NCBI RefSeq assembly: GCF_024199925.1
Contig: NZ_JANADR010000001.1
Span: 8,807,501 to 8,871,500 of the forward strand
Reading direction: 5' to 3'
From: Bradyrhizobium sp. CCGUVB1N3
Lineage (GTDB): Bacteria > Pseudomonadota > Alphaproteobacteria > Rhizobiales > Xanthobacteraceae
Length of the DNA stretch: 64,000 nucleotides
Shown: positions 4,231 through 45,614 of the stretch, in pieces
Numbering within the stretch: the first letter of the stretch is position 1
Layout: every line of letters starts with the position of its first letter
Made by a program: the position numbers and the translations under genes
The notes under the pieces: model-generated
Databases searched by the model: none
What the model saw: the letters and a program-made list of their open reading frames with translations, nothing else
Told to the model about the DNA's origin: nothing

Positions 4231-4340
4231 GAATAAAGAGCGATCCGCGCCGCGAGCCAATCCGGCGAATCCGCAGCCGCCAGCATCACCTGCGCAGGCG
4301 TCCCACCTGCCCCAGCGCTAGTGTCGTAACGAGTCGGCCG

Positions 4341-4830
4341 TTAACAAGCCGGATTGAGCTGGGCCTGGCAAGCGAGCGTTCGCGATGGCAATCCCAGGAA
4401 CAGGCGCAATAAGTCCCTGAGCCAGGCGAGGATGCGGCGCAAGTTGTGGCCAACTGCTGAGAGGACGACGTTGGCGGCATCGCCGGCGCGACCTTTAAGG
4501 TAGCAGCGACCGAGGTGGCCTTCGGCCTTGAGGTGTCCGATGATGGGCTCGATGGCGGAGCGGCGGCGCAGCTCACGCTTGATGACACCGAAGACGCCGC
4601 GCTTCTGGCCGGAGATGAAGACGCGGCGGGGATTTTGCGCGTCGTGCCCGCGGTATCCTTGTCGACATAGGCCCGCTCGATCGCACAGCCGGTGAGTGTC
4701 TCTGTGCGGTCGATGACATCGCGCAAGGTGTGACCGTCGTAGGGGGTATTGGGCAGCGACTTGGCGTGCAGCACGAACAGGCCCCCGGGAGCACGGCGAT
4801 TGTTGGTGACGATGGAGGCCTTCACCCCGA
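4341..4830 (-). pseudogene. IS5-family transposase, C-terminal part with a frameshift
   Basis: It encodes VKASIVTNNRRAPGGLFV, PYDGHTLRDVI and then RRRSAIEPIIGHLKAEGHLG, the latter carrying the catalytic Glu region of DDE transposases. Near 4660 the frame changes between YVDK and YRGHDAQNP: one G seems to be missing from the run in AAGGATACC. The upstream end abuts the end of the IS110-family element at 4831. Confidence 0.8.
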
Positions 4831-6222
4831 TCTATGGACCACGCCCGCGTTGCAAGAGGAATCGACAAAGGGATGAAGCGGTTTGCGCCAATCTATCCGG
4901 CTTCAATTTGGGGCTGTTGCCCCGAGCCATCATGGATATCCGCCCACTTCTGTCCTCAATAACTCGCCGGCCTCAAGAAGGGCCATGGAGTCGAACCAGG
5001 CTTCAGAAGTGTCGGTGGAACCGTTTCTCCATTCGTCCTTTCCGTCTCGCAAACCTCGGCGGGTTATTGTGCCTTCTGATCGGACCTTGGATCTTCCTTT
5101 CCGGCCCTGTTTCTTATGCGGTGCGGCCCAAGAGGTTGGCGTCGTAGTCACGGCCCTTTGCGAGCATGCTCCAGGCTATGCGCGCGAGTTGTGCGGCCAG
5201 GGCAACAACCAAGACATTGGAGTGGAGCCGCTTGGACGCTGCCTCCAACCAGGCTCCGAAGCCATGCCGAGGCCAACTCTGACGCTGCAGAAGTACGGCT
5301 CTGGCGCCCTGAATGAACAGCGTTCGCAGGTACCGATTACCGCGCCTCGATATGCGCCCGAGAATGGTTCGATCGCCGGTCGAGATTTGCTTCGGTACCA
5401 GACCAAGCCATGCTGCAAAGTCCCGGCCCTTATGGAAGGCATCACCGGTTCCGATGGCGGCGACCATCGCGCTTGAGATGATCGGCCCGACGCCGGGCGC
5501 ACTCATTAGGCGGCGACAGTGTGGATCTTGATCAGCGAGTTCGTCGATTTCTTTCGTCATTGACGCGACCCGTCGGTCGAGATGGCGCCAGTCCTCGGCC
5601 AAGTCTTGAATGAGCTGGATCACTCGAGGCGATAAGTTGTCCTTTGGCGCTGAGAGAATCTGAGGAAGTGCCAGTCGGAGCGCTGCCGCTCCCTGCCGGA
5701 CTGGCAGCCCTCGCTCAAGCAAAAAGCCTCGGATTTGATTGATGACCGCGGTTCTTTGCGTCACCAATCGACTGCGAACTCTGTGCAGTGCCTGCAAGTC
5801 AAGTTGCTCGGCCGACTTCAACGGGACAAAGCGCATGGTCGGGCGCTGCGTCGCCTCTGCGATGGCTTCGGCATCACGGAAGTCATTCTTGTGGCCCTTG
5901 AGGTATGGCTTCACATACTGTGCCGGCAAGAGCCGTACTTGATGGCCTAATTTCTCCAGCTTGCGCCCCAGGTGGTGTGCTCCTGAACAAGCCTCCATTC
6001 CGATCAGGCAGGCGGGAACATTAGCCAACGACTGCTCAAGCTGATTTCTCGATCGCTTCTTGCGCAGGATGATTGCACCCGTGGCATCGAATCCCACCAC
6101 ATGGAATGTGTTCTTGCCTAGGTCGATACCGATCGTGACAATGTTCGTATGGGACATGGCTCGTGCTCCTTCTCTTGCCGGGGCTTAACGTTGCCGCTGA
6201 GAGCGGGCGTGGTCCATGCCAT
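4831..6222 (-). mobile_element. IS110-family (IS1111-group) element A
   Basis: About 1.39 kb. Perfect 15-bp subterminal inverted repeats ATGGACCACGCCCGC lie at 4834-4848 and (inverted) 6203-6217, with a few extra bases outside each, as is usual for the IS1111 group. Removing it joins CCCCGA to ACTCGTAAGG and restores the IS5 transposase frame (APYE-FGVK). One transposase gene is on the minus strand; about 265 bp of non-coding sequence lie downstream of it (4849-5113), where this group encodes its guide RNA. That stretch is GC-rich and structured, but I could not assign guide loops with confidence. Confidence 0.85.
5114..6157 (-). CDS. IS110-family transposase (element A)
   Basis: 347 residues, full length. 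The N-terminal DEDD RuvC-like domain shows GIDLGKNTFH (first Asp), MEACSGAH (Glu) and KNDFRDAEAI (Asp pair). The C-terminal transposase_20 domain shows APGVGPIISSAMVAAIG, which includes the conserved Ser region. The enzyme recombines donor and target DNA guided by an RNA made from the element. AAGGAG lies upstream of the ATG. The gene appears intact, so this copy could be active. Confidence 0.92.
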   Translation of the reverse strand: MSHTNIVTIGIDLGKNTFHVVGFDATGAIILRKKRSRNQLEQSLANVPACLIGMEACSGAHHLGRKLEKLGHQVRLLPAQYVKPYLKGHKNDFRDAEAIAEATQRPTMRFVPLKSAEQLDLQALHRVRSRLVTQRTAVINQIRGFLLERGLPVRQGAAALRLALPQILSAPKDNLSPRVIQLIQDLAEDWRHLDRRVASMTKEIDELADQDPHCRRLMSAPGVGPIISSAMVAAIGTGDAFHKGRDFAAWLGLVPKQISTGDRTILGRISRRGNRYLRTLFIQGARAVLLQRQSWPRHGFGAWLEAASKRLHSNVLVVALAAQLARIAWSMLAKGRDYDANLLGRTA

Positions 6223-6223
6223 T

Positions 6224-6283
6224 AACTCGTAAGGCGCAGCGGCCTTGCCTTTGCCGATGCACTCCACCTCCGGGGCATGAAAG
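6224..6283 (-). pseudogene. IS5-family transposase, 60-bp middle fragment
   Basis: This piece, trapped between the two IS110-family elements, encodes HAPEVECIGKGKAAAPYE, which belongs between WKLYSF (end of the 7682-8478 piece) and FGVKASIVTNN (start of the 4341-4830 piece). Joining the pieces restores a single open frame across both junctions. Confidence 0.85.
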
Positions 6284-6368
6284 ATGGGATGGTTGCCGTC
6301 CATCCCTGACGGCATCGCAATGTGCCAAAAGGGTGGTTCACAGCCACTGAGCGGAAAGGACGACAACC

Positions 6369-7400
6369 GTGACGAAGGATACGATGATCGGCGTGGATCT
6401 GGCAAAAAATGTTTTCCAACTGCATGGCGCGTCGATGACGGGGCACGTGAAGTTTCGCAAGAAGCTCTCGCGAGCTCAATTCCACAAATTCATGGCTGAG
6501 CAGGCGCCGAGCGTGGTGGTGATGGAGGCTTGCGGCGGGGCCCATTTTTGGGCTCGGCAGATGATCAAGCTGGGACACGACGTGAAATTGATCTCGCCGC
6601 GCTACGTCAAGCCGTTCTTGAAGCGTCAGAAGAATGACGCGGCCGACGCCGAGGCGATCGTTGACGCGGCGCAGCGTCCGGAAATGCGTTTTGTCGAAAT
6701 CAAGACCGAGTCTCAGCAGACGCGGGCGGTTCTGTTTCGAAACCGGGAGCAGTTGGTTCGTCAGCGCACCGAATTGACGAATGCCTTGCGCGCGTATCTC
6801 TATGAATACGGCTACATCGCTCCGCAAGGAAGCCCAGGCATAAAACAGATTCACGACATACTCGACCAGGAGCGGGGTGATTTGCCGAAGCTCGTGCGTG
6901 ACCTCTGCCGCGATATGTTGCAGCAGATCGCTGAAAAGACCGCACGGATCCAGGCCATGCTGGTGCGACTTAAGGAGCTAGCTACGGAGACCGAGACGGC
7001 AAAGCGCCTGCAGACGATGCCCGGCGTGGGCCCGATCACCGCGCTGGCGATTGAGGCCTTCGCGCCGCCGATGGAGACATTCAGATCCGGCCGAGATTTC
7101 GCCGCGTGGCTGGGGCTTGTGCCACGGCAACATTCATCGGGTGGTAAGCAACGGCTTGGCCGGGCGTCGAAGGCCGGCCAAGTGGACATACGTAAACTCC
7201 TGATCATTGGCGCGATGTCCCGCCTGAGCTGGTTGGGACGCAAATCCATAAGCGAGAAAACCTGGCTGGGTCGCATACTGCTCAGAAAGCCGCGTTTGCT
7301 CGTGGCGGTCGCACTCGCGAACAAGATGGCGCGCGCCATCTGGGCGATGCTGACGAAAAAGGAGAACTATCGAGATCCGGCGCTAGGGGCCGCTGCATGA
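6369..7400 (+). CDS. IS110-family transposase (element B)
   Basis: 343 residues from GTG 6369, with AAAGGA about 8 bases upstream. The DEDD domain has GVDLAKNVFQ, MEACGGAHFW and KNDAADAEAI. The C-terminal domain has MPGVGPITALAIEAF. The reaction and family are as for element A, but the two proteins are clearly different sequences, so these are two independent element types. The open frame is complete and the ends are intact, so it is potentially active. Confidence 0.92.
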   Translation: MTKDTMIGVDLAKNVFQLHGASMTGHVKFRKKLSRAQFHKFMAEQAPSVVVMEACGGAHFWARQMIKLGHDVKLISPRYVKPFLKRQKNDAADAEAIVDAAQRPEMRFVEIKTESQQTRAVLFRNREQLVRQRTELTNALRAYLYEYGYIAPQGSPGIKQIHDILDQERGDLPKLVRDLCRDMLQQIAEKTARIQAMLVRLKELATETETAKRLQTMPGVGPITALAIEAFAPPMETFRSGRDFAAWLGLVPRQHSSGGKQRLGRASKAGQVDIRKLLIIGAMSRLSWLGRKSISEKTWLGRILLRKPRLLVAVALANKMARAIWAMLTKKENYRDPALGAAA

Positions 7401-7479
7401 CGATCAGTCCGCAGCGGGCCTCAATCTAACGCCGGTACGTTGGGGAGTGTGAGAAGACGACGACTTGCATGGGCAAATG

Positions 7480-7660
7480 ATCGAAAGATCTGGATCAGGA
7501 AACCAGCTGTATTCCTGGAGCTTCGAGCTCGAATGAAAGATTTGGACTTGATCCGCAGATCACCATCCCGGCCGGCGGCATCTGAAGGGCCGCACATGAA
7601 GGCCTCACAGAAGCGCGCACTCGATCACATGCTTGCAGGTCAAAAATCTTCTTGCATCAC
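7480..7660 (+). ncRNA. Candidate bridge RNA/seekRNA of element B
   Basis: This lies in the 3' non-coding end of the element, where IS1111-group guide RNAs are encoded. TATTCCT (7510-7516) equals the bottom strand of the right half of the real target with its core, and ATGAAAG (7533-7539) equals the top strand of the left half with its core. They flank a perfect hairpin, GAGCT-TCG-AGCTC (7518-7530). Two more segments match the element ends and could be the donor loop: CCATCCC (7563-7569, complement of 6286-6292) and CACAGAAG (7606-7613, same as 7671-7678). RNA ends are approximate. Confidence 0.6.
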
Positions 7661-7681
7661 GGACGGCAACCACAGAAGAAG

Positions 7682-8478
7682 GAATAGAGCTTCCAGCCGC
7701 GCTGGCGCTGCTGTTGTGAGCGGATCTGGCTGGCTCGTCCAAGGGGGAGTGCGAACGCCTCTTCCAGTGTTGGTTGGTCCTCGATCTTGCGACGGATGTC
7801 GCGGATGATCCGGCCCAGCCGGCTGCGCAAGATACGCAACTGCCGCTGATGCCGCCCGAATTGTTTGGCATGAGCGTAGCGACCCGCCATCATCGCGGCT
7901 GCCTTGGCCACGCGAGAATAGGATTGCCGCAGCCTGACGCCGTGCTGTCTCGCCAGGCGGTTGAGACCCCTGATGGCCGCATGCAAGAGCTTGGCATCAG
8001 TCGGAAAGGTGATGGCCTTCGGTTGCACCGTGGTGTCGACCGTGACGCGCTTGAGGTCCTGGCCGCGTAACGCGCCGGCCGCGTGCGCCACCCGCAGGCT
8101 CTCGGCCAGCAGCAACTCCAGCTTGTCGCCGAGCCGCTTGCGCCAATGGCTCAGGTCCGAGCGCTCGTGCGGGAAGGTGTGCTGGAAGAACTCTTCGCCG
8201 GTGAAGAACTGGAAATACGGATCGTGGACCCAGCGCTCGCACACCCCCTCATCGGACAGCCCGTAAATGTGCTTGAGCAGCAAAAGCCCGATCATGAAGC
8301 GGGTCTCGATCCCGGGCCGGCCGTTCTCGCTGTAGAGCGGAGCGATCTCGCCGTCGATCCAGTCCCAATCGACCTTGCCGGCGAGCAGAACCAGCTCGTG
8401 CTTCATGTTGATGATCTGGTCCAGCCGCGCCCGGAACAGGTCATTCGATCCCGTGGTCTTGTGCTTCTTCGGCCGCAT
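7682..8478 (-). pseudogene. IS5-family transposase, N-terminal part
   Basis: About 266 residues, from MRPKKHKTTGSNDLF to RGWKLYSF. It contains the DUF772-type N-terminal region (ETRFMIGLLLLKHIYGLSDE, ERWVHDPYFQFFTG) and the first catalytic Asp region (VTVDTTVQPKAI). The reading frame then runs into the right end of the inserted IS110-family element and stops after a few foreign residues (FCGCRP). The missing remainder continues at 6283 and 4830 on the same strand. Confidence 0.85.
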
Positions 8479-16017: not shown

Positions 16018-16347
16018 ATGACAAGCAAGACGACGAACAAGTTTTCACCCGAGGTCCGGGCTCGTGCGGTTCGGATGGTTCTGGATCATGCGAGCGAGCA
16101 CCCGTCGCGGTGGGCGGCCGTGACCTCGATTGCGGCCAAGATCGGCTGCACACCGCAGACGCTGCACGACTGGGTCAAGAGGGACGAAGTCGATAGCGGA
16201 CACCGGGCCGGCGTTCCGACCGACATGGCCGAGAAGCTGAAGGCGCTGGAGCGGGAGAACCGTGAGCTTCGGCAGGCGAATGAGATCCTGCGCAAGGCGA
16301 GCGCGTATTTTGCGATGGCGGAGCTCGACCGCCGGTCCAAGCCATGA
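16018..16347 (+). CDS. IS3-family transposase OrfA, copy 1
   Basis: 109 residues. A helix-turn-helix ([40 protein letters not shown]) is followed by a leucine-zipper segment ([20 protein letters not shown]) that multimerises with OrfAB. The stop overlaps the orfB start region by 4 bases, and a -1 ribosomal frameshift near there normally yields the fused active transposase. Its protein sequence is identical to OrfA of copy 2. Confidence 0.95.
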
Positions 16348-17249
16348 TCGCCTTCATCGACGATCATCGTGGGGCGCATGGGGTCGAGCCGATCTGCAAG
16401 GTCTTGCCGATCGCCCCTTCGACCTACCACGCCCATGTGGCCAGGCGGCGCGATCCTGCCAGGCTGTCGGCGCGCGCCAGGCAGGACGCTACCCTGAAGA
16501 TCGAGGTTCGGCGGGTGTTCGATGAGAACTTCCGGGTCTATGGCGTGCGCAAGGTCTGGCGGCAGCTCGAGCGGGAAGGCTTCGATGTTGCCCGCTGCAC
16601 GGTGGCGCGACTGATGCGGGACATGGGTTTGCAAGGAGTCATCCGCGGCAAACCCGTCAAGACCACGATCAGCGACAAGGCCGCGCCATGCCCGCTGGAT
16701 CACGTCAACCGCCAGTTCAGGGCGCCAAGGCCGAACGTTCTTTGGCTCTCCGACTTCACCTATGTCGCGACCTGGACCGGCTTCGTCTACGTCGCCTTCG
16801 TCATCGATGCCTACGCCCGCAGGATCGTGGGGTGGCGGGTCTCGCGCACGGCGCATGCGGGCTTCGTGCTCGATGCGCTGGAACAGGCCCTGCACGATCG
16901 CCGGCCGGTCCATCGCGGCGGGCTCGTGCACCACAGCGACAGGGGCAGCCAATACGTCTCGATCAAATACACCGAGCGTCTGGCTGAAGCTGGTATCGAA
17001 CCTTCTGTCGGCAGCGTCGGGGACTCCTATGACAACGCTCTCGCCGAAACCATCAACGGCCTCTACAAGGCCGAGGTGATCCATCGGCGCGGGCCATGGC
17101 GCAGCTTCGAGTCCGTCGAGTTCGCGACGCTGGAATGGGTGGACTGGTTCAACAACCGAAGGCTCCTCGAGCCCATCGGCAACATCCCGCCGGCCGAAGC
17201 CGAGCAACGCTACTACGCCATGCTGGAACAACCCGCCATGGCGGCATAA
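16344..17249 (+). CDS. IS3-family transposase OrfB, copy 1
   Basis: 301 residues with an N-terminal HTH_21-type segment ([19 protein letters not shown]) and a complete rve integrase core. The DDE residues lie in [12 protein letters not shown] (D), [10 protein letters not shown] (D) and [20 protein letters not shown] (E). It catalyses cut-and-copy of the element when fused to OrfA. Protein identical to copy 2. By the [22 protein letters not shown] type it looks like the IS51 group, but the subgroup is not certain. Confidence 0.95.
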
Positions 17250-17760: not shown

Positions 17761-18221
17761 GGGATGGAGGTCAGTGAACCGCACGCAAGGGCTGCTGCCG
17801 TCGCGAGGCGGGGTCTGAACGAAGCGTGGATCAAAGGTGCGAGCCGATGAATAAAAACCGGATATGAGGCGCAAGCGTCGGACGAGCGGGCGACACATTG
17901 CGAAGTCCAAATTCATCAAGGATGCGAAGCGTAGATCTTGCCCGAGGCGAATTGGTTGGCGATGAGATTGAGAATACGCCGTCGAGAAACACGCGGCTCC
18001 CCTTCTTGAGAACTGAACGTAGTCCCAGTTGGTCCAACTGTGAGATCTTCTGACCTCGTCAGCTTCTCGCAAGCTTGCCCTGCCAAGGTGCGAGCCTAGA
18101 ACTTTGGATTGCGAGACAGTTGAGTGAGCGCCTTACGAAATGAACAGTCACTCAAAGCTCGATCTCGTTACGAGGGAGAAGGCGCGAGAGCGTTTGCCTT
18201 CCTATTACCCGGAATCAGGGC

Positions 18222-44419: not shown

Positions 44420-45288
44420 TAGCGTTGCTCGGCTTCGGCCGGCGGGATGTTGCCGATGGGCTCGAGGAGCCTTCGGTTGTTGAACCAGTCCACCCATTCC
44501 AGCGTCGCGAACTCGACGGACTCGAAGCTGCGCCATGGCCCGCGCCGATGGATCACCTCGGCCTTGTAGAGGCCGTTGATGGTTTCGGCGAGAGCGTTGT
44601 CATAGGAGTCCCCGACGCTGCCGACAGAAGGTTCGATACCAGCTTCAGCCAGACGCTCGGTGTATTTGATCGAGACGTATTGGCTGCCCCTGTCGCTGTG
44701 GTGCACGAGCCCGCCGCGATGGACCGGCCGGCGATCGTGCAGGGCCTGTTCCAGCGCATCGAGCACGAAGCCCGCATGCGCCGTGCGCGAGACCCGCCAC
44801 CCCACGATCCTGCGGGCGTAGGCATCGATGACGAAGGCGACGTAGACGAAGCCGGTCCAGGTCGCGACATAGGTGAAGTCGGAGAGCCAAAGAACGTTCG
44901 GCCTTGGCGCCCTGAACTGGCGGTTGACGTGATCCAGCGGGCATGGCGCGGCCTTGTCGCTGATCGTGGTCTTGACGGGTTTGCCGCGGATGACTCCTTG
45001 CAAACCCATGTCCCGCATCAGTCGCGCCACCGTGCAGCGGGCAACATCGAAGCCTTCCCGCTCGAGCTGCCGCCAGACCTTGCGCACGCCATAGACCCGG
45101 AAGTTCTCATCGAACACCCGCCGAACCTCGATCTTCAGGGTAGCGTCCTGCCTGGCGCGCGCCGACAGCCTGGCAGGATCGCGCCGCCTGGCCACATGGG
45201 CGTGGTAGGTCGAAGGGGCGATCGGCAAGACCTTGCAGATCGGCTCGACCCCATGCGCCCCACGATGATCGTCGATGAAGGCGATCAT
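44383..45288 (-). CDS. IS3-family transposase OrfB, copy 2
   Basis: 301 residues, identical in sequence to OrfB of copy 1, with the complete rve DDE core ([39 protein letters not shown]). Expressed as a frameshift fusion with OrfA. Confidence 0.95.
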
Positions 45289-45614
45289 GGCTTGGACCGG
45301 CGGTCGAGCTCCGCCATCGCAAAATACGCGCTCGCCTTGCGCAGGATCTCATTCGCCTGCCGAAGCTCACGGTTCTCCCGCTCCAGCGCCTTCAGCTTCT
45401 CGGCCATGTCGGTCGGAACGCCGGCCCGGTGTCCGCTATCGACTTCGTCCCTCTTGACCCAGTCGTGCAGCGTCTGCGGTGTGCAGCCGATCTTGGCCGC
45501 AATCGAGGTCACGGCCGCCCACCGCGACGGGTGCTCGCTCGCATGATCCAGAACCATCCGAACCGCACGAGCCCGGACCTCGGGTGAAAACTTGTTCGTC
45601 GTCTTGCTTGTCAT
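45285..45614 (-). CDS. IS3-family transposase OrfA, copy 2
   Basis: 109 residues, identical to OrfA of copy 1: helix-turn-helix plus leucine zipper. Overlaps OrfB by 4 bases. Confidence 0.95.

Follow-up and report, generated by a model that had tools for sequence, protein, structure and literature searches.

A Bradyrhizobium IS1111-group element predicted to carry the guides to its own insertion site in its 3' non-coding end

The window, the whole 64,000-nucleotide stretch of DNA analysed here, contains an IS1111-group insertion sequence within an IS5-type transposase gene, which raises the question of how the element came to that site. On the strength of sequence comparison, we hypothesize with a probability of roughly 0.94 that the element picks its insertion site via an RNA that its 3' non-coding end encodes. 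The RNA-guided mechanism was published in 2024, for seekRNA (PMC11187229) and for bridge RNA (PMC11208160); comparisons below refer to the available portions of these two papers. The element and its parts were placed as follows.

6282..7676, plus strand: IS1111-group element, set by its relatives' conserved ends and the subterminal inverted repeat (sTIR) pairs, with the core AG counted at the left
6290..6301, plus strand: left sTIR, TGGTTGCCGTCC
6369..7400, plus strand: DEDD transposase of 343 aa (NF033542, IS110 family RNA-guided transposase, 305.6 bits against a cut-off of 140)
7661..7672, plus strand: right sTIR, GGACGGCAACCA
7679..7681, plus strand: extra AAG of the window copy, between the second core AG and GAATAG at its right junction

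Membership of the IS1111 group, proposed by the first-pass annotation, was upheld by the sTIRs (12 of 12 positions complementary), the DEDD transposase and a non-coding region that is longer downstream of the transposase gene (276 nt, 7401–7676) than upstream (87 nt). Each sTIR pair was complementary in 56 to 63 of 63 copies, and several were formed by different types of pair in different copies. In 48 of the 63 non-redundant relatives the sTIR extends outwards by a 13th pair (6289/7673), which is broken in the window copy. With 13 sTIR pairs, the terminal extensions fit those of IS1111 (AGATGGG, 7 bp, left; AGA, 3 bp, right); the window's own 12 pairs give 8 and 4. ISEc11, ISKpn4, ISPa11 and ISPst6 likewise have an sTIR of 11–13 bp with 7- and 3-bp extensions (occasionally 6 and 3 bp in IS1111 elements), and IS1111 seekRNA elements carry the non-coding region downstream of a DEDD transposase of 330–350 aa (PMC11187229). 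Residues D10, E53, D90 and D93 and the SG motif were invariant among eight compared proteins, the C-terminal S(T)G motif reading GLVPRQHSSG in the window. Only the ISCro4 and IS621 transposases matched at E ≤ 0.01 among sequences with solved structures. Rfam at gathering thresholds gave no match within the element.

The conserved ends of the relatives extend from AG at 6282 to CAGAAG ending at 7678, and the flanks diverge beyond. The element limits follow the convention of a 7-bp left and a 3-bp right extension, which makes 7677–7678 the second core AG. Among relatives with a readable right end, similarity mostly stopped after 7678 (L024 stops earlier); L052 has a small deletion just inside its left end. 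The right end was originally placed at 7681, with AAG 7679–7681 taken into element and core. That limit was moved to 7676 (7678 with the core): the AAG is absent from the junctions of the sister copies L023 and L052, and from the IS5 copies L012 and L017, which are uninterrupted here. It was probably added after insertion, by later slippage in an AAG repeat or a small duplication.

These features bear on whether the window copy is degenerate and immobile, with guides that once worked in an element that can no longer move. We consider this rather unlikely. The copy is the sole full-length one in its 10.4 Mb genome, where the other 12 matches are partial with 65–83% identity; it has the extra AAG and the broken outer sTIR pair; and circle formation of ISEc11 stopped when flanking target bases were replaced (PMC11187229). 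However, the transposase is open over all 343 aa, and the ends and guides are intact. Immobility of this copy does not conflict with an RNA-guided mechanism.

The first element separates the 5' part of the interrupted gene from its remainder.

7682..8478, minus strand: 5' portion of the IS5-type transposase gene (NF033578) that the element interrupts

The NF033578 model matched protein 3 (7657–8478, minus strand) with 298 bits and protein 4 (4286–4825, minus strand) with 31.5 bits; the remainder of the gene lies at 6225–6281 and then to the left of a second element. In our own reading, the codons across the empty site are L-Y-S-F-H-A-P-E, with the insertion in S-F-H. The target could indeed be rebuilt from the interrupted gene: GCATGAAAGGAATAG is as long as the corresponding stretch in L012 (GCATGAAAAGAATAG) and L017 (GCATGGAAGGAACAG), IS5 copies from this genome with no interruption at the insertion point. 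Of 257 genomes of the genus that were searched, 67 had an unoccupied IS5 site with at most one mismatch, and A rather than G stood at target position −2 in 15 of 139 cases among the places listed (counted by hand). No exact unoccupied IS5 site was found in the element's own genome, which has the site with one mismatch once (L012) and with two mismatches at 11 places.

The candidate target guides lie in the 3' non-coding end, on either side of a hairpin.

7510..7516, plus strand: right target guide (RTG) TATTCCT, pairing with top strand AGGAATA
7518..7530, plus strand: guide-separating hairpin GAGC-loop-GCTC (helix 5)
7533..7539, plus strand: left target guide (LTG) ATGAAAG, including core AG, pairing with the bottom strand

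All strings quoted in the first-pass annotation were recovered at their positions, CACAGAAG (7606–7613) included. The GAGCT/AGCTC hairpin that it had described between the guides was 98.4% paired across relatives, with double changes at three of its four pairs. The RTG sits in an internal loop closed by CCAG (7503–7506) and mismatches its own target at +6. The top-strand guide stands 5' of the bottom-strand guide and both match the actual target, a trait of IS1111-type seekRNAs.

The family was sampled to follow guides and targets across relatives. Scanning with five aligned transposases yielded 79 genome loci (from the best 80 of 429 relatives) and 18 viral-contig loci. Together with loci collected earlier, these were screened with profiles of the element ends, made from eight left ends and 14 non-coding ends. 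Of the 135 non-coding matches returned, 14 ended prematurely and were discarded; 100 of the remaining 121 had a left end. An unbiased scan tested all combinations of non-coding column and target position under 100 permutations; it covered the 93 copies with no fewer than 14 nt of flank on each side (76 non-redundant by target-loop sequence). On the same strand, the top five cells paired LTG columns 7533–7537 with target positions −5 to −1. These cells agreed in 62, 63, 64, 65 and 68 of the 76 copies (z 10.7–13.0), and the next best same-strand cell had z 4.2. The complementary strand gave the antiparallel signal expected of the RTG: the strongest cells formed two adjacent diagonals through 7508–7516, with z up to 9.3; an off-diagonal cell in the RTG scan (7432 against −3) reached z 5.8. 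The family thus covaries at exactly the columns that had been proposed as target guides, 7510–7516 and 7533–7539.

A second analysis parsed 114 of the 121 copies (seven were not parsed), of which 91 had both flanks and 69 were non-redundant by their guides. Targets were permuted 2000 times, with three registers permitted for own and permuted targets alike. Over the 69 guide pairs, the LTG matched its own target at 4.26 of 5 positions vs 2.11 for permuted targets (maximum 2.53), and the RTG at 5.04 of 6 vs 2.43 (maximum 2.82). In 55 of 69 cases no other target scored better than the own one, and in 65 the own target was within the top three. It ranked below third in four: L084 and L057 look like mis-parsed hairpins, and the left end of L083 and L044 is mis-set or mismatched.

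The register of the RTG varied. An 11-nt segment of the right guide was available for 68 copies; 21 of these were clearly in one register and 29 clearly in another, one base apart. A full complement of the core AG was present in the RTG of 22 of the 29 copies in the second register vs 5 of the 21 in the first. The two registers may reflect tolerance of the enzyme. Guide matching itself is tolerant, since L079, L080, L090 and L095 carry identical guides at imperfect sites.

Seven close copies or left-end remnants were compared at the same IS5 codons: the window copy, L023, L052 (AP014688), L053 and L056 (Bradyrhizobium japonicum plasmids), and L221 and L222 (left-end remnants). The listed remnant H7 was left out. 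Among named genomes, the nearest copies of the element lie in Bradyrhizobium. None of the seven fetched copies lay at an unrelated site. GCATG[A/G]A precedes AG in all seven, and GAATA follows the right end in the three that have one (window, L023 and L052; in the window behind the extra AAG). The right ends of L053, L056, L221 and L222 are lost. At position −2, a synonymous wobble base, guide and target both carry A in the window copy and G in L023 and L052. A second change in L023, TTTATTCCT, agrees with the AATAA of its target; the window and L052 keep a mismatch there. These co-changed bases represent few events and serve as an illustration.

The guides that would recognize the element's own ends were examined in the same way, in 63 non-redundant of 98 copies.

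7563..7569, plus strand: proposed right donor guide CCATCCC, matching GGGATGG of the left end in the window
7608..7613, plus strand: left donor guide with core, CAGAAG, covarying with the element's right end

The core base at 6282 equalled that at 7538 in 63 of 63 copies (50.2 expected) and that at 7612 in 62. A left core other than AG (GA, GG, TG, AC or GC) occurred in 16 listed copies. The core within the LTG was the same as the left core in 12 of these (GA, GG and TG) and differed in four (L075, L083 and L091, AC; L044, GC). Right-end positions matched the putative left donor guide in 61 of 63 copies (7673/7608, 55.4 expected), 62 of 63 (7675/7610, 40.8 expected) and 60 of 63 (7677/7612, 49.3 expected). 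The cells of 7608, 7610 and 7612 were the three best right-end cells and all fell on one diagonal, which supports CAGAAG (7608–7613) as the left donor guide with core. Unrelated cells in the donor scan had z 6.8 to 8.2, many at sTIR positions; this high background, as in the RTG scan, is due to shared ancestry. For CCATCCC, no convincing covariation with the left end was found in the 63 copies: column 7567 was A in 45 and C in 18 without a matching left-end change, and left-end bases 6284–6287 were nearly invariant. The best mutual-information partner of 6288 was 7557 (z 8.5, vs z 1.6 for 7567), with letters at 6288/7557 that are not simply complementary. Of the two donor guides initially suggested to match the element's own ends, CACAGAAG (7606–7613) thus gained support from covariation and CCATCCC (7563–7569) did not.

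RNA structure was assessed by alignment, consensus fold and pair counts, in 46 of 49 non-redundant sequences (three members with a TG core were left out).

7463..7640, plus strand: predicted seekRNA/bridge RNA region (34 consensus pairs in 46 sequences)
7479–7484 with 7621–7626, plus strand: closing helix of the consensus fold
7570..7604, plus strand: donor stem-loop, GGCC 7570–7573/7601–7604 (helix 6) and GCGGC 7575–7579/7589–7593 (helix 7)

The consensus fold had 34 pairs in seven helices, with a target arm ending in CCAG/TTGG and the donor segments flanking the stem-loop at 7570–7604. Consensus pairing held in 97.5% of cells, and double changes occurred at 14 pairs vs 2.8 in shuffles. Helix 6 never varied and therefore falls outside the covariation. 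Pairing dropped to 19–49% when the partner was slid by 1–3 bases, a control that leans towards the consensus, as the latter was derived from the same alignment. The single RNA of the window folded with z −3.43. The predicted structure is thus conserved in homologues, and together with the family-wide guide–target covariation it sustains the target-loop layout of a bridge RNA/seekRNA that had been read from the window alone.

We also considered that the matches are flanking target DNA, copied into the non-coding end after insertion by gene conversion or capture. Guide–target agreement, including the co-changed wobble base, would be equally expected from copying. However, the two halves match opposite strands, one the top and one the bottom, at fixed positions in a conserved fold, and the donor segment agrees likewise with the right end of the element. 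Several sites with one guide set, as in L079, L080, L090 and L095, are expected if the guide precedes the site, and changed guides and flanks change the site in other members (PMC11187229). Copying is therefore very improbable. It is barely credible that the 7-mers resemble guides by chance and that the site is recognized by the transposase itself: neither 7-mer alone is rare (left in 1949 and right in 322 of 20,000 dinucleotide shuffles of 7401–7660), but both occurred in the right order at similar spacing in only 2 of 20,000 under a lenient rule, and covariation at these columns was far beyond that with permuted targets.

Under the RNA-guided reading, an RNA with a conserved predicted fold would derive from the element's 3' non-coding end, with guides that change together with targets across relatives. 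A further guide, beside the second stem-loop, corresponds to the element's own right end plus core. If it behaves like the members studied in the literature, its DEDD transposase would bind the processed RNA and excise the element in circular form, with the two ends abutted. The circle would then be pasted at the core, here into the S-F-H codons of the IS5-type transposase gene. IS1111-type seekRNAs are RNAs of 70–100 nt bound to the transposase (PMC11187229).

The window element is a well-supported member of this already described seekRNA/bridge RNA mechanism. It shares with the IS1111 seekRNA elements of PMC11187229 the top-strand guide before the bottom-strand guide, one fold and natural re-targeting among relatives, and differs from them in its target, IS5 codons. 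The available text of that paper treats single elements with few natural re-targetings, whereas agreement here extends across 69–76 non-redundant relatives of one lineage; covariation of the left donor guide and core goes beyond it. The two-loop logic of IS621 (IS110 group, bridge RNA; PMC11208160), with target and donor guides that both include the core dinucleotide, recurs here for the target guides and the left donor guide. In contrast, the IS621 RNA is in the left end, and the RNA here is in the right end with the RTG first; the features of IS621-type elements (left-end RNA, bottom-strand guide first, no long sTIR) were not those of this element. Covariation in the available part of PMC11208160 concerns IS621-type pairs, with three IS1111 elements inspected by eye. 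ISEc21 (IS110 group) is likewise aimed at conserved codons in the catalytic region of a different transposase family (IS3), yet has the opposite guide order, the non-coding region on the other side and a different host transposase (PMC11187229). No title or abstract opening on the element or its IS5 targets was found in the literature searched (preprints and most subscription journals lay outside its scope).

A second element interrupts the same IS5 gene.

4831..6224, minus strand: second IS1111-group element, with its transposase at 5114–6157 (minus strand)

Its sTIR was complementary at 15 of 15 positions (4834–4848/6203–6217), and its transposase is 41% identical to that of the first element. 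It is inserted at the P-Y-E|F-G codons, 57 bp from the first element. Among the copies listed, with 30 loci fetched out of a larger number of matches, T[C/T]GG stands directly 3' of the right end in 25 of 32 distinct copies, and TA[C/T]GAGT precedes the left end in 17 of 20 with a left flank (our own count). A simple guide search matched only CGAGT (5 nt) beside the junction. Covariation was of no help for its guides, as most copies occupy the same codons. Elsewhere, the window contained two ALIL pseudoknots (RF01497) of equal score (16302–16418, plus strand; 45214–45330, minus strand), which we take to be typical of IS3-family frameshift signals, and a Group II intron D1-D4-3 match (RF02001, 81.4 bits; 17797–17962, plus strand).

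Other relatives of the first element also lie in transposase genes. In L069 (3001–4680), L070 and L072, a family member with guides GCAGA-AG/AACGATG interrupts the KRQK-NDAADAEAI catalytic codons of another IS1111-group transposase; L072 carries an extra partial tandem copy of the right end. By our reading of the flanks, L030 lies in IS5 at AKQF and L025–L029 in IS21 istA, the IS21 model being matched by two flank frames. The flanks were scanned with NCBIfam and Pfam in 143 of 151 frames; the eight frames left out were one over-long (L091) and seven of L042, L044, L045, L046, L048 and L049. Among the first 25 families listed, transposase matches included IS110 (8), IS5_1 (7), IS66 (3), IS21 (2) and IS6 (2), where members can match several models, and ordinary genes were also matched.

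We tentatively propose, at slightly less than even odds, that this alphaproteobacterial IS1111 lineage comprises RNA-guided hyper-transposons repeatedly re-programmed onto conserved codons of other transposases (IS5 S-F-H, IS5 AKQF, IS21 istA and IS1111-group KRQK-NDAAD), with guides that track single synonymous bases and an RTG that can slide by one base, which could ease retargeting. The presence of two different IS1111-group elements 57 bp apart at conserved IS5 codons fits the use of mobile elements as dispersed landing pads. In this IS1111 subgroup, most parts are legible in the DNA: both target guides, the core, the left donor guide and real targets. Its dozens of natural guide/target pairs could teach the rules of mismatch tolerance, register and re-targeting of RNA-guided recombinases.
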